Assembly: GCA_003223425.1 (NCBI GenBank)
Contig: QHVA01000113.1
Span: 1 to 33,592 of the forward strand
Origin: Gemmatimonadota bacterium
GTDB taxonomy: Bacteria > Gemmatimonadota > Gemmatimonadetes > Gemmatimonadales > Gemmatimonadaceae
DNA: 33,592 nucleotides
Direction: 5' to 3'
Under the pieces are notes generated by a model. The model made no database searches. It saw only the letters and a list, made by a program, of their open reading frames with translations, and had not been told where the DNA came from. The translations under genes and the position numbers were made by a program. Position 1 is the stretch's first letter; each line of letters begins with the position of its first letter. Positions 46-19,603 of this stretch are shown here, piece by piece.

Positions 46-134
46 GGAAAGCTCCCCGCTAAACAGCTGCAAAGCTCTCCGCTCCCCGCTTCGGTTTTGT
101 GGATGGGAGCTCCCGCAACGATCCAAACCCCGCC
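46..134. repeat. Dispersed intergenic repeat, copy A
   Basis: First of five copies of a GC-rich element. The shared core is AGCTCTCCGCTCCCCGCTTC, preceded by a GGAAAGCTCC...GCTAA..CAGCTGCAA stretch. It is followed by a conserved tail, TGTGGATG, then about 20 looser bases and GATCCAAACCCCG. This copy has one arm only and lies just upstream of the DUF5916 gene, so that gene's promoter or leader runs through or beside it. No coding function is seen. Confidence 0.8.
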
Positions 135-186
135 GTGACGCTCAAAGCTTATTGCTGTCACCTTCGACCCGACCCATCATTCCGCC

Positions 187-2490
187 ATGAACCTGCTCCT
201 AGTGGCAACTACGCTGGTCTACATCGGCCGCGAGAACCAAGTCAACGTTCGCATCCCCCGCATCGAAACCGACGTAACCGTCGACGGCAACCTCAACGAG
301 CCGGTGTGGCAGCAAGCGGCCGTGCTCACTGGATTTTCTGAATTCTCACCGCACGATGGAATTCCGGCCGCCGACTCGACGCAGGTCCTCGTCTGGTACT
401 CGCCGAACGCGGTGTACTTCGGCATCCGCGCCTTCGAGCTGCACGGCGCTCCGCACGCCACGCTCGCCGATCGCGACAAGATCTCCGCCGACGACAACGT
501 CCAGATCCTGCTCGGCACCTTTCACGATCATCGCCAAGCCTACGTCTTCGCTGTGAATCCGCTCGGCGTCCAGATGGACGGCACCATCGTCGAGCAGGGA
601 CAAACTCTTACCGGAACCTGGACGCCCGCACTGTCGGGGCGCGTTGCACCGGATCTGAGTCAGGATTTCGTGTTCAGCTCGAAAGGTCGTTTGACCAACT
701 ACGGCTACGAGGTCGAGATCCGTATCCCGCTCAAGAGCCTCAAGTACCAATCGGGTGACGAGCAGAGCTGGGATCTCAACATCGTGCGCCAGGTTCAGCA
801 CTCCGGACACGAAGATTCATGGGCGCCGGCCAAACGCGCCAATACGTCGTTCCTCGCTCAGTCCGGCTCACTCGACGGATTGACTGGGCTTAGTCGCGGA
901 CTGGTGCTCGATGTGAATCCATCGCTCACACACAAAGTCACTGGCGGGCCGAGTCCAAGTGGATGGAAATACGATCGCGGCTCGCCGCAGCTGGGAGGGC
1001 GAGTGCAGTGGGGAATCACCAACACCCTCACCCTCAACGGCGCTGTGAATCCCGATTTCGCCGAAGTCGAGTCGGATGCTGGACAATTCGTGATTGATCC
1101 TCGACAGGCGCTGTTCTTTCCGGAGAAGCGGCCGTTCTTCCTCGAGGGACTGGACGCGTTCAACACGCCGCACAATCTCATTTACACTCGGCGCATCGCG
1201 AAGCCGGACGGCGCGCTCAAACTCACTGGTAAAGTCGCCGGCACCAGTATCGGAGTTCTCTCGGCAGCGGATGACCGCAGCCTGTCGCCATCCGGGCACG
1301 ATCGGGCTATCTACAACGTTCTCCGCGCACAGCGCGACATTGGCGGACAGTCGCGACTCGGCATCGCGTACACCGATCGCGTGCTCGGCGGAGACTACAA
1401 TCGCGTCGCTGACGTCGACGGGCGGATTGTTTTCGGACAGGTCTACAGCGCGTCGTTCCAGGCTGCCGGCAGCTTTGATAAAGCAAACGGAGTAGTGCGC
1501 AACGCGCCGTTGTGGGAAGGAATCTTTGCGCGCAACGGCAAGCAATTCGGTTTGCGTTACCTCTTCACCGGAATCAGTGACGACTTCCGTACCCGGAGCG
1601 GATTCATCTCGCGGCCCGGAATTGTGCGCGCGGATGTGGATCACCGCGCGACCTGGTTCGGCGAGCGCGGCGCAAAGTTGGAGACGCTAACCGGCGAGGT
1701 CATCCTGGACGACCAGTGGCAGTACTCGCATTTCATGCGTCGCGGCGACGCGCAGGACAAGAAGTTTCACCTGAGTGGGAGCGCGGGATTGCGAGGTGGT
1801 TGGAACGTTGGACTCGGCGTGTACTTCGAGACGTTCGGCTTCGACCAGGGGCTGTATTCCAACTATCGAATTCTGGCGCCGACAGGCGACACGTTGCCGT
1901 TCGTCGGCAGACCTCGCATCACCAATCACGACTACGTGCTCACGCTGGTGACTCCACAGTGGTCGATCTTCAGTGGGAATCTTCTGTATGTCGGTGGCCA
2001 GGACGAGAATTTCTTCGAGTGGGCGCAGGCCAACATCGATCTCATACAGCTCGGCGTTAATGTGAGGCCGAGTGATCGTGTTCGCGTAGACGGAACGTTT
2101 GCGTACCAGGACTATTGGCGGCGCAGCGATCACACGCTCGCCGGACGCAACATGATTCCGCGCGTGAAGCTCGAGTACCAGTTGACGCGCGCCATCTTCA
2201 TGCGACTCGTCGGAGAGTACGATCTCAGCGAGCACGACGATCTCCGCGACGAGACGCGGACGAACTATCCGCTCATCATCGACGGCCAGCTGGCGACTGC
2301 CGTGCGCGCGCGATCGATGCACGGCGACTACTTGTTTTCCTACCAGCCGACGCCGGGCACGGTGGTGTTCCTCGGCTACGGCAGCACGGCGAGCGGGGAG
2401 CCGGATCCGGCGCAGCGGTTCAATTGGCAGCCGCTGCGGCGGGCGTCGGATTATTTCTTTGCGAAGGTGAGCTACCTGCTTCGGCTGTAG
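187..2490 (+). CDS. DUF5916/CBM9-like outer-membrane protein
   Basis: A 767-residue protein. The N-terminal part (about residues 20-200) looks like the family 9 carbohydrate-binding-like domain: IDGxLxEPVW-type opening (VTVDGNLNEPVWQQA), a charged YxGIRAFE strand and a late RIPLKSLKY motif. The rest matches the DUF5916 pattern, with the hallmark FFPEKRPFFLEG near residue 315 followed by YTRRIA, then alternating aromatic strands ending in SYLLRL, as expected of an outer-membrane beta-barrel. The hydrophobic start MNLLLVATTLVYIG is short for a signal peptide, so the start could be imperfect, but no better in-frame start was seen. Family members are usually 700-900 residues, so it is full length. 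The substrate is unknown; binding or transport of a glycan or metabolite at the outer membrane is inference. It stands alone between two repeat copies. Confidence 0.85.
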   Translation: MNLLLVATTLVYIGRENQVNVRIPRIETDVTVDGNLNEPVWQQAAVLTGFSEFSPHDGIPAADSTQVLVWYSPNAVYFGIRAFELHGAPHATLADRDKISADDNVQILLGTFHDHRQAYVFAVNPLGVQMDGTIVEQGQTLTGTWTPALSGRVAPDLSQDFVFSSKGRLTNYGYEVEIRIPLKSLKYQSGDEQSWDLNIVRQVQHSGHEDSWAPAKRANTSFLAQSGSLDGLTGLSRGLVLDVNPSLTHKVTGGPSPSGWKYDRGSPQLGGRVQWGITNTLTLNGAVNPDFAEVESDAGQFVIDPRQALFFPEKRPFFLEGLDAFNTPHNLIYTRRIAKPDGALKLTGKVAGTSIGVLSAADDRSLSPSGHDRAIYNVLRAQRDIGGQSRLGIAYTDRVLGGDYNRVADVDGRIVFGQVYSASFQAAGSFDKANGVVRNAPLWEGIFARNGKQFGLRYLFTGISDDFRTRSGFISRPGIVRADVDHRATWFGERGAKLETLTGEVILDDQWQYSHFMRRGDAQDKKFHLSGSAGLRGGWNVGLGVYFETFGFDQGLYSNYRILAPTGDTLPFVGRPRITNHDYVLTLVTPQWSIFSGNLLYVGGQDENFFEWAQANIDLIQLGVNVRPSDRVRVDGTFAYQDYWRRSDHTLAGRNMIPRVKLEYQLTRAIFMRLVGEYDLSEHDDLRDETRTNYPLIIDGQLATAVRARSMHGDYLFSYQPTPGTVVFLGYGSTASGEPDPAQRFNWQPLRRASDYFFAKVSYLLRL

Positions 2491-2491
2491 G

Positions 2492-2655
2492 GCGGGCTTG
2501 AGATCGTTTCGCTAGTCGGCATCCACAGAACAGAAGCGGGGAGCGGAGAGCTAAGCAGCCTCGTAGCTGGCAGCTTTCAAAGCGCGCTGGAAGAAAGCTC
2601 CTGGCTTAGTAGCTGCGAAGCTCTCCGCTCCCCGCTTCAGTATTCGATGTCTCTA
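2492..2655. repeat. Dispersed intergenic repeat, copy B (two inverted arms)
   Basis: Here the element is a large inverted repeat. The left arm GAAGCGGGGAGCGGAGAGCT (2533-2552) is matched perfectly by its reverse complement at 2619-2638. Outside the left arm lies the conserved tail in reverse (CGATCT/CTAGC/GGCATCCACAGAAC on the plus strand from 2499). The right arm is followed by a different end, CAGTATTCGATGT, shared only with copy C. The right arm overlaps the last 15 or so codons of the histidine kinase gene, so the repeat codes for that protein's tail. It lies immediately after the stop of the DUF5916 gene and could also fold as a transcription-stopping hairpin for both genes. Confidence 0.85.
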
Positions 2656-3895
2656 CGCGCCGCCGCTCCGCCGGACTCGTCGCCTTTCGCCGTAAAGGGA
2701 GCGCGATAGCAAAGATGGATCCTCCGTCATCCGGGTATTCCGCCCACGCGCGCCCGCCCAGCGACTCGGCCGCCTCGCGAACGATGTTGAGGCCGAGGCC
2801 AGTGCCTTCGATCGAGCTCATACCCTCGTGCGCGCGGAAGAAACGCTCGAACAGCTTATCGCGCTTGTCAGGCGGGACGCCGATGCCGTTGTCGCGAACG
2901 CGAACCACGACTCTCCTCTCTCCGTCGTCCGTCTGCTCCTCCGCGCCCGAGATCTCGACGAATCGCTGAGGCTTTGCCGGATCGGCATACTTGATCGCGT
3001 TGGAGAGATAATTCTTCACGCAGAGCTCGATGACGGCAGCACTGACTTCGATGTCCGGCATTCCAGATACGATGCGCACATCGATCTTCGCGCTCTGCGC
3101 AGCTTCGCGTACCTGCCGAACCGCTTCACCCACCGCCTCGGCGAGCTTCACGTTTCGGTGCTGGCGTGGGTCGTCACCATCTGCCCTCGAGAGAATCAGA
3201 ACGTTCTCCACTGTGTTTCGCATCTCTCTCGCGTTCCTGAGAACAATTTCCTCGAGGTCGGCGCGCTTGGAGGAGGGCATTTCGGAAAGCTCGTTCAGAA
3301 CGGTGCTGGCGCCGAGTATTGCGCCGACCCGGTTTTTGATCTCGTGTGAGATCACCCTGTTGAATACGCGGAGCCGCTCCTCTCGCTCGGCAACGTGCCT
3401 GTCGGCGAGCAGCAGAAAGTGAGTCATCGTCGTTTGCTGGATGATCGTCACCGCCCGATAGAGACGGGCGCCGCACGCCATCAACTCACTCTTCTCGCAC
3501 GGCTCCTTGACTTGCTCGACGGTTGTCGTGAAGAACTCGAACAGAATTCCGCCGAGGAATTCGTACTCCTTGAGGATCTCGTAGGCGTCGAAGCCCTGCT
3601 TGTGGCGGAGCTCGCCGAGCTCCATCGCTTTGGCGACGACCGGCATGTCGACGCCGATCTCGGCGGCCGGATTCTTCACGTAATCGGCGACCCCGTCGAT
3701 GAGCAGCGGGACGTGGTCGAGCAAGTCATTGGTGGGGAACACACGATTCCGGTCGAGCGAGACGCGACTGGCGATCCGGTCCAGCCACTGCACCGTCAGA
3801 TCGTGCCTGGCCCGCCTGAGTCTCTCGGCGAGTACCCCCGCGAGCGGACAATCAATCTCGACTCTCGACACCCCTGACTGCTGTTCTGGCCTCAT
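2606..3895 (-). CDS. Soluble sensor histidine kinase, orphan
   Basis: A 429-residue kinase. Residues about 20-165 resemble the RsbRD-type N-terminal helical domain (LLDHVPLLIDGVADYV near 58). Then come a short coiled coil, an H-box with the phospho-accepting His184 (VISHEIKNRVG), an N-box (NYLSNAIKYA, Asn299), a G1 box (DNGIGVPP, 335) and a G2 box (GTGLGLNIV, 364). No membrane segment is visible, so it should sense a cytoplasmic signal. The start at 3895 is chosen because AAAGGAG lies a few bases upstream; the longer track ORF would translate repeat copy C. No response regulator is adjacent. The tail after residue 414 (ETSNTEAGSGELRSY) is encoded by repeat copy B and is unlikely to be part of the kinase fold. 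Kinase identity is firm; its partner is unknown. Confidence 0.9.
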   Translation of the reverse strand: MRPEQQSGVSRVEIDCPLAGVLAERLRRARHDLTVQWLDRIASRVSLDRNRVFPTNDLLDHVPLLIDGVADYVKNPAAEIGVDMPVVAKAMELGELRHKQGFDAYEILKEYEFLGGILFEFFTTTVEQVKEPCEKSELMACGARLYRAVTIIQQTTMTHFLLLADRHVAEREERLRVFNRVISHEIKNRVGAILGASTVLNELSEMPSSKRADLEEIVLRNAREMRNTVENVLILSRADGDDPRQHRNVKLAEAVGEAVRQVREAAQSAKIDVRIVSGMPDIEVSAAVIELCVKNYLSNAIKYADPAKPQRFVEISGAEEQTDDGERRVVVRVRDNGIGVPPDKRDKLFERFFRAHEGMSSIEGTGLGLNIVREAAESLGGRAWAEYPDDGGSIFAIALPLRRKATSPAERRRVETSNTEAGSGELRSY

Positions 3896-3940
3896 CCCAG
3901 CTCCTTTGCAGCCGATGGAAATGCAGGTGCCGGGCCAGGG

Positions 3941-4100
3941 CGCGGGGTCGAAATTCGGGGGCGCTACCGGGCGTCCACAGAACTGAAGCGGGGAGCGGAG
4001 AGCTTGACAGCGTTCAAGCTGGGAGCAGCCCCAAAGAAGCTTCCGCGCTAAGCGGCTGCAAAGCTCTCCGCTCCACGCTTCAGTATTCGATGTGCGTAGA
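3941..4100. repeat. Dispersed intergenic repeat, copy C (two inverted arms)
   Basis: Second two-armed copy. The left arm GAAGCGGGGAGCGGAGAGCTT (3985-4005) pairs with the right arm at 4061-4081, with one mismatch (CTCCACGC instead of CTCCCCGC). The outer left tail GGGGCGCTACCGGGCGTCCACAG is the reverse of the conserved tail. The right end is CAGTATTCGATGT, as in copy B. It fills the space between the divergently read kinase and DUF2214 genes, so both promoters must lie in or next to it. Confidence 0.85.
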
Positions 4101-4151
4101 TGGCGGCGTTCCGCTTGCGACCCAGTCCCTGTCGGAGTACAGTTCGCGCCA

Positions 4152-4619
4152 ATGCTCCGCGTCACCCTCGCCGCGCTCCACCTATTCGCACTCGCCTTCG
4201 GGCTTGGCGCCGTTTATGTGCGGGGGCGTTCACTCACCGAGCGCCCTTTGACTCTGGGTGCGGTGCGACGAGCATTCGTTGCCGACTCGTGGTGGGGTAT
4301 TGCTGCGGGACTGTGGATCGCAACCGGACTCTGGCGACTCTTCGCCGGCACCGAAAAGGCGACGAGTTACTATCTGCACAACGATGCGTTCTTCGCCAAG
4401 ATGGCCCTGCTCATCATCATCCTCGCGCTGGAGATATGGCCGATGATGACGCTCATCCGCTGGCGTAAGGCAGTGGCGAAATCGAGCGACGCGTGGCAAC
4501 CCGACGAGATCGTCGCCGGCCGGATCACGAAAATCAGCTACATCCAGGCAGCACTCGGCTTGGCGATGGTCGTGGCAGCGGTGTTGATGGCCCGCGGATA
4601 TGGTTACCGCGGTCCGTAG
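4152..4619 (+). CDS. DUF2214 family inner-membrane protein
   Basis: A 155-residue integral membrane protein with four predicted helices: about residues 3-22 (LAALHLFALAFGLGAVYVRG), 42-64 (WWGIAAGLWIATGLWRLFAG), 82-102 (AKMALLIIILALEIWPMM) and 130-150 (IQAALGLAMVVAAVLMARG). Early His, the FVADSWWGIAAGLWIATGLWR stretch and FFxKMxLL fit the DUF2214 family (predicted membrane proteins of unknown role). The start at 4152 is preferred over the track start at 4092. The first 20 residues of the longer version are basic, non-conserved in look and start at the edge of repeat copy C, whereas MLRVTLAALHLF begins directly before the first helix. It is monocistronic between repeat copies C and D. Confidence 0.8.
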   Translation: MLRVTLAALHLFALAFGLGAVYVRGRSLTERPLTLGAVRRAFVADSWWGIAAGLWIATGLWRLFAGTEKATSYYLHNDAFFAKMALLIIILALEIWPMMTLIRWRKAVAKSSDAWQPDEIVAGRITKISYIQAALGLAMVVAAVLMARGYGYRGP

Positions 4620-4645
4620 GAAGCGCGAGCCGAGGAGCGCGAGTA

Positions 4646-4735
4646 TGAAAGCTTACGGCTAATAAGCTGCAAAGCTCTCCGCTCCCCGCTTCAGTCCTGT
4701 GGATGTCAGCCAGCGCAGCGGTCTAAACCCCGACG
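4646..4735. repeat. Dispersed intergenic repeat, copy D
   Basis: Single-armed copy: GAAAGCTTACGGCTAATAAGCTGCAA, then AGCTCTCCGCTCCCCGCTTC, then CCTGTGGATG and the tail ending GTCTAAACCCCG. The tail supplies the TAG stop codon of the downstream minus-strand monooxygenase gene (4723-4725). The element separates two convergent genes and may act as a bidirectional terminator or REP-like site. Confidence 0.8.
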
Positions 4736-5919
4736 ATATGCTCGCGCCTGAACCCCAGCCCAATCAATCTCGCCGGGATGCGCTGCAAAACGGGAATCGC
4801 CCCGAGCGCCCGGACAACGAGCGGCGGCTTCATTCGTCCCGCGCTGCCGAGCACCCGCTTGATGATATTGTTCTGAATCAGGAGCTGCACGCGCTGCGTA
4901 ATGCGCGTTGGCAGCTCGCGTCGCTGCTGCACTCGCCGCAGCGCCTCGATCGGAATGCTCGAGTCCCGCCGAAACTCGGGAATCAGGATGTTCGCCGCCG
5001 CGACTGCATCCTGCACCGCAAGGTTGATCCCCACTCCGGCGATCGGCGACATCGCGTGCGCTGCGTCTCCAATGCAGAGGAGCCCGGGCCGGTACCACTC
5101 GCGCAGCCGATTGACCTGAACCGTCAGCAGCTTGACGTCGTCCCAATCGCGGAGCTCGCTGACACGATCTTTTAAGAACGGATTCATCTGCACGATGTCG
5201 GCGCGAAGAGCGTCGATGCCACCACGCCGAATCTCGTCGAATCCTCCTTTCGGAATGACGAGCGCGCACTGCCAATAATCCCCGCGATCGAGCATCACGA
5301 AAACACGTCCAAAATCGATGCGGCCGAATAGCTGCTCGGGATCCCCGGCTCGTTTCGACAATCGCATCCAGAGCGCATCCATGGGCGAGCCGAAGTCAAT
5401 CGGCTGAAGTCCGGCCTCCTCGCGCACGTGAGAATCCCGCCCATCGGCCGCAACCACCAGATCGGCGCGCATTTCACGCTCGCCCTTCGACGTCTTAACG
5501 CGCACGCCGATGACGCGCTGGCCATCGAAGACGAGCCCGGTCACTTCCGCTTCCATCTCCAATTGGAACAACGGGTACTTCCGGCCCTGATCGGCCAGGA
5601 AGTTCAGAAAATCCCACTGCGGCATGAACGCCAGGAACTTGCAGTGCACCGGCAGGTGACTGAAGTCGCCGAGCACGAGCGTGGTGTCGCCGATCTGACC
5701 AGTGAGCTTGCGCACCCTTGAGTGCGGAAGCTTGAGGAACTCGTTAATGAGGCCGAGCTCGTAGAGGATCTCCAGAGTCGACGGGTGCACAGTGTCGCCG
5801 CGGAAATCCCTGAAGAAATCGGCGTGCTTCTCGAGCACTGTAACGCTGATACCCGCGCGCCCGAGGAGATAGCCGAGCATCATTCCGGCGGGCCCGCCAC
5901 CAACGATGCAGCAGTTCAC
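4723..5919 (-). CDS. FAD-dependent aromatic-ring-type monooxygenase/oxidoreductase
   Basis: A 398-residue flavoprotein of the p-hydroxybenzoate hydroxylase/UbiH group. The N-terminal dinucleotide-binding fold is explicit: IVGGGPAGMMLGYLLGRAG (GxGxxG, residues 7-12) followed by an acidic strand end VTVLEKH. The middle DG motif is DLVVAADGRDSHVRE. The late GD motif, which contacts the FAD ribose, is LLCIGDAAHAMSPIAGVGIN. Length is normal for single-component hydroxylases. The start is directly at the FAD fold, and an alternative longer start is not needed. The substrate cannot be told from sequence; quinone, aromatic and antibiotic hydroxylation are all known in the superfamily. It is divergent from the glycosyltransferase at 6.0 kb and ends inside repeat copy D. 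Confidence 0.88.
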   Translation of the reverse strand: MNCCIVGGGPAGMMLGYLLGRAGISVTVLEKHADFFRDFRGDTVHPSTLEILYELGLINEFLKLPHSRVRKLTGQIGDTTLVLGDFSHLPVHCKFLAFMPQWDFLNFLADQGRKYPLFQLEMEAEVTGLVFDGQRVIGVRVKTSKGEREMRADLVVAADGRDSHVREEAGLQPIDFGSPMDALWMRLSKRAGDPEQLFGRIDFGRVFVMLDRGDYWQCALVIPKGGFDEIRRGGIDALRADIVQMNPFLKDRVSELRDWDDVKLLTVQVNRLREWYRPGLLCIGDAAHAMSPIAGVGINLAVQDAVAAANILIPEFRRDSSIPIEALRRVQQRRELPTRITQRVQLLIQNNIIKRVLGSAGRMKPPLVVRALGAIPVLQRIPARLIGLGFRREHIVGV

Positions 5920-16345: not shown

Positions 16346-17626
16346 TCATATGTTCGGCGACAGTGACGTCTCGGTTGGAGTCATCATCTCGGCGCCGGTT
16401 TCCGTGATCGCCAGGATGTCCTCGAGACGAATCCCGAATTTCCCGTACTGGTAGATTCCGGGCTCGTCACTGAACGTCATTCCAGGCTGCATCACGATCT
16501 GGCTGCCGCGCACGAGGTACGGCCACTCATGACCTTCGAGCCCGATGCCGTGGCCGAGTCGGTGAGTGAACGTCCGGTAATCGGGACCATAGCCCGCGTC
16601 GGTGATGACTTTGCGCGCGACTGCATCGACGTCGCCGCATTTTTTTCCTGGCGCGGCGAATTCAATTGCGCGACGCTGTGCCTCGTGCACGATGTCGAAC
16701 ACCTTTCGTGCTTCCGGTGACGGGGTGCCGAAGACGACGGTGCGACTCATATCCGACTGGTAGCCATGGACGCTCAGGCCGCCATCGACCAGCACGACCT
16801 GATTCTCCTCGAGCGTGCGCGGCTTCGGCAATCCGTGCGGGTACGCAGATGACTCGCCGAACAGCGCGAACACGCCGCCCTGAAACCCAAGCTTCGTCAT
16901 TTCAGTCGCGAAGTTGCGTACGAGCTCAGCCTGGGTCATTCCGACTCTCAACGTCTTGAACCCGGCGCGGTACGCCTGGAGCGTGATCTGATTCGCGAAG
17001 CGCATGATCTCGATCTCGTGCGCGGACTTCACACCTCGACATGCATTGGTGATTGCCTCGGCCGTCGCCATCTGCAACGCAGGAAGAGCGAGTGCGAGCT
17101 CGTTGAACACGAAGGTGCGTGCGCTGCCATCGACGCCAAGCTTGCCGGTGGTGACGCCCCAATCCCTGAGCACACCGGCGACGAGTGCCTCCGGACTTTG
17201 ATCTTCCTGCCACACGCGAATCTCGAATCGCCCATTCACCTGATCCTCGGCGCGCTGCCGCTCGAACGCGGGCGAGATCACGATCGGTTTTCCGGTTTGC
17301 GGCAGAATGAAGGCAAACAGGCGCTCGCTGCGTCCCCAGTCGATGCCTGCGAAGTACGTCATGTTCGCTCCCGGTTCGATCAGCATGGCCGAGTAGCCGA
17401 GCTCTTTCATGAGGCGCTGCGCTTTATCGCGGCGTTGGGTGCGCTCGTTTTCGCTTATCGGTAGTGGCGCGTCAGCTAGCAGCGTTCGAGCCGGCTCGCG
17501 CGCGGGAGCGGCGGCGCGGTTGGTGTCGAGCTGATTCGCCAGAGCGGCAGCGGGATTGAGTCTCCCTCCAAGTGCGGCCGCACCGGCAACCAGCGACGCA
17601 CGTTGAACGAACTCTCGGCGTTGCAT
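16346..17626 (-). CDS. Tat-exported M24 family aminopeptidase (Xaa-Pro peptidase-like)
   Basis: A 426-residue metallopeptidase. The N-terminus MQRREFVQRASLVAGAAALGG is a twin-arginine signal (RREF plus hydrophobic stretch), so the folded enzyme is exported to the periplasm. Residues 60-190 form the creatinase/prolidase N-terminal domain. Residues 200-426 form the pita-bread catalytic domain with all five metal ligands visible: Asp281 (VLVDGG), Asp292 (QSDMSRT), His359 (LGHGIGLEGHE), Glu388 (SDEPGIY) and Glu402 (RLEDIL). Length fits Xaa-Pro aminopeptidase/dipeptidase relatives. It removes N-terminal residues next to proline, or a related substrate. It is divergent from the plug-only protein gene with a 65-bp gap that must hold both promoters. 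Confidence 0.92.
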   Translation of the reverse strand: MQRREFVQRASLVAGAAALGGRLNPAAALANQLDTNRAAAPAREPARTLLADAPLPISENERTQRRDKAQRLMKELGYSAMLIEPGANMTYFAGIDWGRSERLFAFILPQTGKPIVISPAFERQRAEDQVNGRFEIRVWQEDQSPEALVAGVLRDWGVTTGKLGVDGSARTFVFNELALALPALQMATAEAITNACRGVKSAHEIEIMRFANQITLQAYRAGFKTLRVGMTQAELVRNFATEMTKLGFQGGVFALFGESSAYPHGLPKPRTLEENQVVLVDGGLSVHGYQSDMSRTVVFGTPSPEARKVFDIVHEAQRRAIEFAAPGKKCGDVDAVARKVITDAGYGPDYRTFTHRLGHGIGLEGHEWPYLVRGSQIVMQPGMTFSDEPGIYQYGKFGIRLEDILAITETGAEMMTPTETSLSPNI

Positions 17627-17691
17627 ACGAACCCCCCGAAGCGATGGATGGTCGAGAAGTATACATTAGAGAATCCGCGAGGTTGATCCTG

Positions 17692-19095
17692 ATGATCAAA
17701 CTGCTTTGCCTATGCTTAGCGGTCCCTCTGATCGCGTTGGCGACACCCCTCGGCGCGCAGAACACAACGCCGCCGACCCCACCGGTCATTTCGAGAACCG
17801 GCAAGGGGCAAATCGTGGGTGCGGTCATCGACAGTCTCAATGGCAGATATCTCTCGGGTGCGGATGTCGTAATCGAGGGGGGAAGGGCGGCGCTCGAGAC
17901 TGATTCCCTGGGGAGATTCAAAGTCGACAGCCTCGCCCCCGGCACATACAAGGTTCGCGTATTCCACGCCCTTCTCGACACGCTCGGCATCAACCTGCTC
18001 ACGCAGCCGTTTCACGTCGGCCCGGACAGCTCGAGCGTCGTGATACTTGCCGTGCCATCAGCGATGACGCTCGTCCATCTCTCGTGTCGACAGTCGGGCC
18101 CGTATGGAGAATCCGCAGTGATCGGCCACGTCAGCGATCCCGAAACTCTCCAGCCCGTCGCCCGAGCCGAAGTATCAATTGCATGGACTGAGATCGATAT
18201 CACGAAGGAGTTAGGTCTGCGCCGAACTCCCCATCTGATGTTCGACAGTACCGACGCTTCGGGAGCCTTCAAAATCTGCGGACTGCCGAACGCGATGGAG
18301 GCGACACTGCAGGCGCGACGCGGATCCGCAATCACCGCCGAGATTCCGATCTCGCTCGGAGAGAGGCCCGTCGAGTTGCTCGCGCGAACAGTATTGCTTT
18401 CCCCAGCCAACTCGGGGTCGAAGAGCGGAAATGCAACGGTGTCGGGCACGGTGACGCTCGAAGGCGCACGAACAAATGCGGGCACCAGAGTAGAGCTGGT
18501 GGGAACCGATATCGCCGCGATGACGAATGAGAAGGGAGAGTTCACCATGCGGAACCTCCCGTCGGGCACCAAGCTCCTGCTTGCTCGGCACCTCGGCTTT
18601 GTTGTGCAGTCTGTCGCGGTCGATCTGTCGTCGCGCGAAACGCAGCGCGTCACGATCAGGCTCACGAAATTCCTGGAGATGATGGATCCCGTCCTCGTGA
18701 CCGCGCGGAGAACGGCGGCGCTCGACAAAGTCGGCTTCAATCAGCGGAGAAAAACGGGGCTGGGTTTCTATATCGGTCCGGAGCGATTGGAGGATACGCA
18801 CCCCATTTTCCTCACCGATATTCTCAGACAGGTGCCCGGTCTTCGCGTGAGCTACGGCATCCACGGCGACGTGGTCACGAGCTCGCGCGGAGTGACGAAT
18901 GGATGCGTGGAGTACTATCTTGACGACGCGCCGTACACGGAAATGAATCCGGGCGATGTCAACCGTTTTGTGACCGCGCGAGAGGTCGTTGCCGTCGAGG
19001 TCTATGAGGGCCCCACGACGCCGGCGCAATACGTGCGCGCCGGAGCAATCTGCACTACGGTCGTACTCTGGACACGACTTAGGATTCGAGGTTAA
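17692..19095 (+). CDS. Carboxypeptidase-regulatory repeats plus TonB plug, without barrel
   Basis: A 467-residue exported protein. The start at 17692 gives a signal peptide (LLCLCLAVPLIALATPLGAQ); the track's longer start lies in the divergent peptidase gene. Three CarboxypepD_reg-like beta-sandwich units follow: about residues 38-115 (VGAVIDSLNGRYLSGADVVIEG), 135-235 (VIGHVSDPETLQPVARAEVSI) and 250-330 (VSGTVTLEGARTNAGTRVELVG). Then comes a TonB-receptor plug-like domain (DPVLVTARR, FLTDILRQVPGLRV, GVTNGCVEYYLDDAPY, EVVAVEVYEGP). It stops at CTTVVLWTR without the 22-strand barrel. A Cys in NGCVEYYLD and one in AGAICTTVVLW form a pair also seen in the gene at 25.9 kb. Likely an envelope assembly or binding protein; function unknown. 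Confidence 0.82.
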   Translation: MIKLLCLCLAVPLIALATPLGAQNTTPPTPPVISRTGKGQIVGAVIDSLNGRYLSGADVVIEGGRAALETDSLGRFKVDSLAPGTYKVRVFHALLDTLGINLLTQPFHVGPDSSSVVILAVPSAMTLVHLSCRQSGPYGESAVIGHVSDPETLQPVARAEVSIAWTEIDITKELGLRRTPHLMFDSTDASGAFKICGLPNAMEATLQARRGSAITAEIPISLGERPVELLARTVLLSPANSGSKSGNATVSGTVTLEGARTNAGTRVELVGTDIAAMTNEKGEFTMRNLPSGTKLLLARHLGFVVQSVAVDLSSRETQRVTIRLTKFLEMMDPVLVTARRTAALDKVGFNQRRKTGLGFYIGPERLEDTHPIFLTDILRQVPGLRVSYGIHGDVVTSSRGVTNGCVEYYLDDAPYTEMNPGDVNRFVTAREVVAVEVYEGPTTPAQYVRAGAICTTVVLWTRLRIRG

Positions 19096-19104
19096 GACCG
19101 TAAC

Positions 19105-19200
19105 ACCCGTATGGAAGCTCCCAGCTAACCAGCTTGAGTCAGCTAACAGCTCCCCGCTTCCGTTCTGTGGATGCCGGCTAGCGCCCCGATCTAACCCCCG
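19105..19200. repeat. Dispersed intergenic repeat, copy E
   Basis: Most distant copy, 14.4 kb from copy D. GGAAGCTCCCAGCTAACCAGCTTGAG is followed by a shortened core AGCTCCCCGCTTC, then GTTCTGTGGATGCCGGCTAGCGCC and GATCTAACCCCCG. As with copy D, the tail carries the stop codon of a minus-strand gene (the lipoprotein, TAG within GGCTAGCG). It lies between two convergent genes. Confidence 0.78.
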
Positions 19201-19603
19201 GGGTTCTGCAGATGGGGCAGGGCCCCATCTTCGGCTCCTTCCCGTAAATCAGAGTCACGGGACCCAACACCCGCGCCGTATCGGTGAGGGAGACCGTCAG
19301 CGTCATCGTCTGCCCGATGATGCGTCCGCTGAACGTGGCTGGATGCGTGATCCCGCGATCGACTGGATACGCGTCTACGTTGTAAGTCCCGCTGGCTTCG
19401 AACCGGCCATTGGCGTCGGGGCGGATTGGACCGACTGCATCGCCGAGTGTGCAGCCGATGTGGACGTGTACGTCGGTGCCGCTAACAATCATTCCGGCAT
19501 TGTCGCCGCCCCAGGTCCCGACGACGTCAGTGATCGGCGTCGATGTAGCGGCCGAGCACGCGAGCAGTGCGAAGATCGACGGCAGTACCGAAATCCGCGT
19601 CAT
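19178..19603 (-). CDS. Small lipoprotein of unknown function
   Basis: A 141-residue protein with a lipoprotein signal (SIFALLACSAATS, lipidated Cys16). The mature part (VVGTWGGDNAGMIVSGTDVHVHIGCTLGD..., FSGRIIGQTMTLTV) is a strand-rich domain of the sort that measures or binds small ligands, with a WGG start common in small beta-barrel lipoproteins. A late CPIC pair (GPCPICRTPG) could bind metal or form a disulfide. The last residues GVRSGR and the stop come from repeat copy E. No family name can be given. Its 5' neighbour is the divergent ZIP transporter with a 89-bp gap. Confidence 0.75.
   Translation of the reverse strand: MTRISVLPSIFALLACSAATSTPITDVVGTWGGDNAGMIVSGTDVHVHIGCTLGDAVGPIRPDANGRFEASGTYNVDAYPVDRGITHPATFSGRIIGQTMTLTVSLTDTARVLGPVTLIYGKEPKMGPCPICRTPGVRSGR

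Follow-up and report, generated by a model that had tools for sequence, protein, structure and literature searches.

The window analysed here, a stretch of 33,592 nucleotides from a contig of a Gemmatimonadota bacterium (QHVA01000113.1), carries related repeats at five places, which raises the question of what these repeats are and how they came to lie there. We consider them to be, most probably, gene-less, MITE-like derivatives of a mobile element in which inverted arrays of short units flank a gene of the PF05635 (IVP/S23) family. An earlier note on this DNA had described five copies of a palindromic family of REP/MITE type with a common core and tail. The five places are borne out: at up to 3 mismatches, the core AGCTCTCCGCTCCCCGCTTC has seven matches at five places in the window and none in 100 dinucleotide shuffles of it (Table 1). 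The copies are situated between protein genes and outside rRNA genes, and no Rfam match was obtained in the window.

Table 1. Arms of the repeat family in the window, with scores for the sequence model R1
Feature	Position	Strand	R1 score (bits)	Remarks
Single arm	46..137	+	79	Right-arm orientation; nhmmer
Core	73..92	+		Exact match; last three GCT-anchored units AGCTCTC CGCTCCC CGCTTC
Element A, left arm	2490..2579	-	79	
Element A, right arm	2592..2660	+	53	Alternative tail AGTATTCGATG
Element B, left arm	3941..4028	-	71	
Element B, right arm	4035..4108	+	42	Alternative tail
Single arm	4643..4739	+	79	Inner border GTATGAAAGC shared with IVP-carrying copies
Single arm	19108..19205	+	69	Inner border CGTATGGAAGC

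Any partner of the first arm (46..137) would fall outside the contig start. A DUF5916-like gene starts at 187, 50 bp beyond this arm, and the left arm of element A begins at the stop codon of that gene (187-2490). Element B has its left arm in the divergent spacer between a histidine kinase gene (start 3895) and a DUF2214 gene. The next arm (4643..4739) lies between the DUF2214 gene and a gene for a FAD-binding monooxygenase, the 3´ end of whose frame (4723) it covers, and the last (19108..19205) is on the 3´ side of gene 17572-19095. Some copies are partly inside genes, as had been claimed: element A (2490-2660) contributes the final codons of the histidine kinase frame with its stop at 2606, and two further arms, 4643-4739 and 19108-19205, extend over the 3´ ends of frames on the minus strand. 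The product of 17572-19095 is a CarboxypepD_reg/Plug protein that stops just past its plug domain, immediately ahead of the 19108 element, and is possibly a truncated TonB-dependent receptor.

Each arm is made up of GAAAGCTCCCAGCTAAnnAGCTGCAAAGCTCTCCGCTCCCCGCTTCAGTTCTGTGGATG and a looser tail ending near GATCTCGACGCCGAG; along it, units of 7-8 nt, degenerate in sequence and anchored by GCT, follow one another. Among 60 copies, six GCT triplets spaced by 7, 8, 8, 7, and 7 nt are 93-100% conserved (core triplets 95-100%). Between the first five triplets the sequence is variable, with consensus frequencies of 36-84%. As the first copies were collected by means of the core, the unbiased triplets are the three upstream ones. 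The dominant lags in the arms are 7 (z 13), 15 (z 11), and 8 (z 5), values that are descriptive because the 60 copies are related to one another. In the window family, the heptad array appears to have drifted: its spacing is 7-8 nt and there is no strict lag-7 run. Adjacent arms no more than 250 bp apart are head-to-head in 19 of 19 pairs, and in most of these the centre measures about 12 or about 54 bp; in two related genomes, G010 and G011, it is usually close to 100 bp. Such paired elements span about 150-300 bp.

The claim that two of the copies are two-armed inverted repeats holds, as elements A and B have long complementary arms that fold well (z -5.3 as DNA and -6.7 as RNA for A; -6.5 and -7.1 for B). 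The single-armed copies fold like shuffles (z about +1 to -1.8), and the 20-40 nt imperfect palindrome of a REP/RAYT unit was rejected as a description of them. The supposedly common tail, TGTGGATG...GATCTAAACCCC, proved to be common only in part: it stands after the arm in single-armed copies and, diverged, after the left arm in two-armed ones, but both right arms have a different tail (Table 1). A subfamily in G010 (L114-L117) is sharply bounded on the outside by TCAAGGCGGGCCGTTGATC / GATCAACGGCCCGCCTTGA, in many cases with CA next to it, which gives TTGACA, and may permit exact definition of the borders.

The family is not confined to the window. With the model R1, built from 18 copies, 65 copies are detected at E<1e-4, spread over 30 contigs of the 2.5 Mb genome (a Gemmatimonadota MAG, 86% complete), and the core alone has 24 matches at up to 2 mismatches, so that neither a core restricted to this place nor a local duplication accounts for the copies. 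Among the other 18 genomes of the host genus, 12 contain the family, with up to 39 copies each, and outside the genus it is essentially absent, with single marginal matches or none. A wider search of genome contigs, from which the organism's own or near records were possibly left out, returned no exact core. One locus of the host genome (L030, G000:C175, 1500-2570) is a recent tandem duplication of ~891 bp bearing two near-identical elements. At another (L083, G000:C149, 989-2091), a SIMPL/DUF541 gene has an arm of the window family on either side; the two arms, separated by 914 bp, are head-to-head, and the gene is either cargo or lies between two neighbouring single arms.

In related genomes, the partner of the repeats is a PF05635 gene between the same arms, and not a transposase. 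PF05635 occurs in 51 of 61 genomes of the host order, usually in several copies. Arms of the window type, together with their inner borders, are found on both sides of such a gene at L102 (G011), L120 (G005), and L157 (G001), where the larger element is putatively autonomous, and on one side at two contig-limited loci, L154 (G010) and L194 (G016). The inner borders agree, GTATGAAAGCTCCC in L120 corresponding to GTATGAAAGC at window position 4643. The IVPs with window-type arms cluster together; the four compared have 67-86% mutual identity vs 62-68% for the best match outside. Arm similarity and IVP similarity are correlated (Mantel r 0.41, reached in 0 of 2000 permutations). By sequence, the closest solved structure to IVP is XCC0516 of Xanthomonas (2gsc). 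A related protein, Avd of the diversity-generating retroelements, forms a pentamer of the four-helix-bundle type and binds nucleic acid. The host genome itself speaks against the proposed origin: its one IVP gene (C29) is without window-type arms, and none bearing them was detected, in an assembly that is 86% complete. Other IVP elements of the genus (L153, L174, L181, L182, L186, and L201) have a quite different heptad, CGGGYAR, in up to 136 nt per arm.

The arrangement is far more general than the window family. Inverted repeats between the flanks (E<=1e-5) are present at 52 of the 56 IVP loci of the order that have sufficient flanks vs 1 of 251 placements elsewhere, and the arm sequences vary by locus yet keep a period of 7 (lag-7 z 18). 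A scan of public genomes with a three-row IVP alignment gave 80 IVP loci in about 20 phyla, including ANME-1 archaea. Here, 45 of 73 testable loci have inverted repeats vs 0 of 120 control placements, the remaining 28 being without a significant one at E<=1e-5. In all these comparisons the loci are phylogenetically non-independent, and the genomes are mostly MAGs. Lag-7 arrays were seen in 57 of 74 IVP flanks vs 2 of 53 controls, and the lag-7 z in the arms of this set is 29. Heptads 3´ of the IVP gene have a common, strand-consistent CT[AG][AG] anchor (2.98 bits vs a null maximum of 1.84), and the GCT anchors of the window family are on that strand too. The layout recurs in cultured bacteria, on several complete plasmids from Nostoc, Anabaena, Calothrix, and Azospirillum. 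In Anabaena sp. 90 and Picosynechococcus (L356 and L360), the IVP gene is amid same-strand CRISPR-cas genes (cas6/cas4; cas10/Cmr3), a layout that suggests an insertion leaving the operon intact.

Dispersal of IVP heptads without the gene can be followed in another genome. G022 has its own IVP heptad, CAACTCT, in at least 57 arrays across the genome, and the six other genomes that served as control have none; this heptad array is near-identical backwards, so the reversed pattern is uninformative. Five close head-to-head pairs in G022 have centres of 12-54 bp; the two members of the pair that flanks the IVP gene are separated by 507 bp. Eight arrays (on C3, C17, C26, C27, C31, C48, C49, and C55) are within 60 bp of a contig start, which implies that the repeats break assemblies and that copy numbers from MAGs are probably too low. 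In G037, the IVP heptad is found at three further, imperfect places only, and amplification is thus not universal.

The best surviving alternative is that the copies are classical MITEs of an unseen DDE insertion sequence that captured IVP genes as cargo. The long inverted arms, the look of internal deletion, and the element in which a SIMPL gene replaces IVP all speak for this. We nevertheless find it improbable, since chance capture does not explain an IVP-in-heptad layout in about 20 phyla with unrelated heptads, nor the co-variation of arm and IVP sequence, and no transposase was seen between the arms, where only PF05635 and the one SIMPL gene occur.

The anatomy, association, dispersal, and presence/absence of the elements were observed, whereas the role of IVP as a mobility or recognition factor that reads the heptads, and the chemistry of spread, we infer. 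A complete element consists of a left arm, a PF05635 gene for an IVP/S23 four-helix bundle, and a right arm, and both arms are arrays, inverted relative to each other, whose 7-8 nt units carry a CT anchor (GCT in the present family). The two-armed copies would be complete elements minus the gene, and the single-armed copies would have lost one arm too. The pentameric IVP may recognise the phased anchors in DNA or in a transcribed hairpin, and this recognition could let the element, including gene-less copies in trans, reach new intergenic sites, with copying perhaps aided by host or other enzymes. IVP has no known catalytic domain, which counts against the explanation, as do the SIMPL gene between two arms, the 28 IVP loci of other phyla without a significant inverted repeat, and the fact that neither a target-site duplication nor a base-exact boundary was found.

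In a further alternative, IVP would mobilise nothing, the heptad hairpins being RNA-level devices excised by RNase III, as rRNA intervening sequences are, with the excised RNA spread by retro-transposition through an unrelated reverse transcriptase. The very stable RNA hairpins of the two-armed copies, the excision of the Coxiella intervening sequence (IVS) by RNase III (PMC4990558), and the location of some IVP genes within operons, e.g. of cas genes, are in keeping with this. On the other hand, the GCT anchors are kept while the intervening letters change, often disrupting the pairing, a pattern better suited to recognition of the anchors than to pairing by itself, and we give little credence to a purely RNA-based origin.

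Close relatives differ in the presence of elements. Histidine kinase orthologues were too diverged for an empty-site comparison; instead, elements were removed from G011 and the joined flanks sought in relatives. G014, with flanks about 95% identical, is without the elements at L103, L105, and L108 and without the IVP element at L102. At L163, G014 has kept the left arm, and the gene and right arm are gone; this one-arm remnant offers a direct model for the window's single-armed copies. The element at L108 is absent from G002 and G005 and reduced to one arm in G016, and the insertion at L101/L118 is common to G011 and G014. These differences may be gains or losses. No target-site duplication was seen at the compared sites, where the spacers are too diverged for base-exact borders. 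Adjoining the insertion site in the L108/L337 spacer is a strongly conserved stretch, ATCTATGTTGGGCCCGCGGCAA...GGCGGCCCCTA, that has no Rfam match and may be an unlisted small RNA.

Presence and absence at orthologous spacers of close relatives also speaks against the proposal that the repeats are immobile structured regulatory or terminator sequences selected at gene ends. Their location near gene ends and the stable hairpin of the two-armed copies would suit such a role, but the one-armed copies do not fold and nothing matches Rfam, and we hold this to be very unlikely. Least credible of all are REP/BIME elements moved by a RAYT (Y1/HUH) transposase, which would be short, intergenic, numerous, and palindromic when paired, as the copies are, whereas the RAYT search proposed in the earlier note gave no PF01797 (Y1_Tnp) match at E<=1 in the 86% complete genome while control genomes gave matches, single arms are neither palindromic nor fold, and the arms are heptad arrays flanking IVP genes. 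What stands of the REP/MITE assignment is its second half: the copies are MITE-like in being dispersed, mostly intergenic, arranged as an inverted pair, and present or absent between sister genomes.

The IVP-heptad layout may bear on two old puzzles, the purpose of IVP and the origin of bacterial 7-letter repeats, both of which can be tested with one protein and one oligonucleotide. We see an even chance that IVP/S23 and inverted CT-anchored heptads form a distinct and widespread class of mobile elements that have no recognised transposase and occur in Bacteria and some Archaea, that their gene-less offspring make up much of the unexplained heptamer repeats in bacterial genomes, and that the array is the recognition code of IVP. 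For annotation, the rule would be that an IVP gene and its heptad predict the dispersed repeat family of the genome. Among open-licence papers, we found none linking IVP to dispersed heptads.

Several known systems invite comparison. The REP/BIME elements with RAYT have a similar extragenic palindromic layout, but here the anatomy is another and there is no Y1 transposase. MITEs are likewise short, gene-less, and dispersed, with inverted arms and presence/absence; the difference is that no parent transposase is found here, the arms are heptad arrays, and no target duplication was seen. The IVS of 23S rRNA in Leptospira and Coxiella has an inverted-repeat stem around a PF05635 gene, as does the window family in related genomes, whereas the elements of this family, mostly gene-less, number in the tens and occupy ordinary spacers between genes. 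The S23/IVP proteins have been described as being without known function; that of Xanthomonas campestris is a homopentamer of four-helix bundles, and tandem heptamers (GACAGAT) are found upstream of the S23 gene in the Coxiella IVS (PMC4990558). Finally, the heptamers GGGAATC of Xanthomonas and GGGGA(C/T)T of Nostoc were reported, as G-quadruplex repeats, to be over-represented without a cause being given, and a text search of that paper finds neither S23 nor intervening sequences (PMC4692102). These tandem repeats resemble the present family in being genome-wide heptads and, in Xanthomonas, often in close inverted pairs, of which there are 70-75 in each of two Xanthomonas genomes (PMC4692102).
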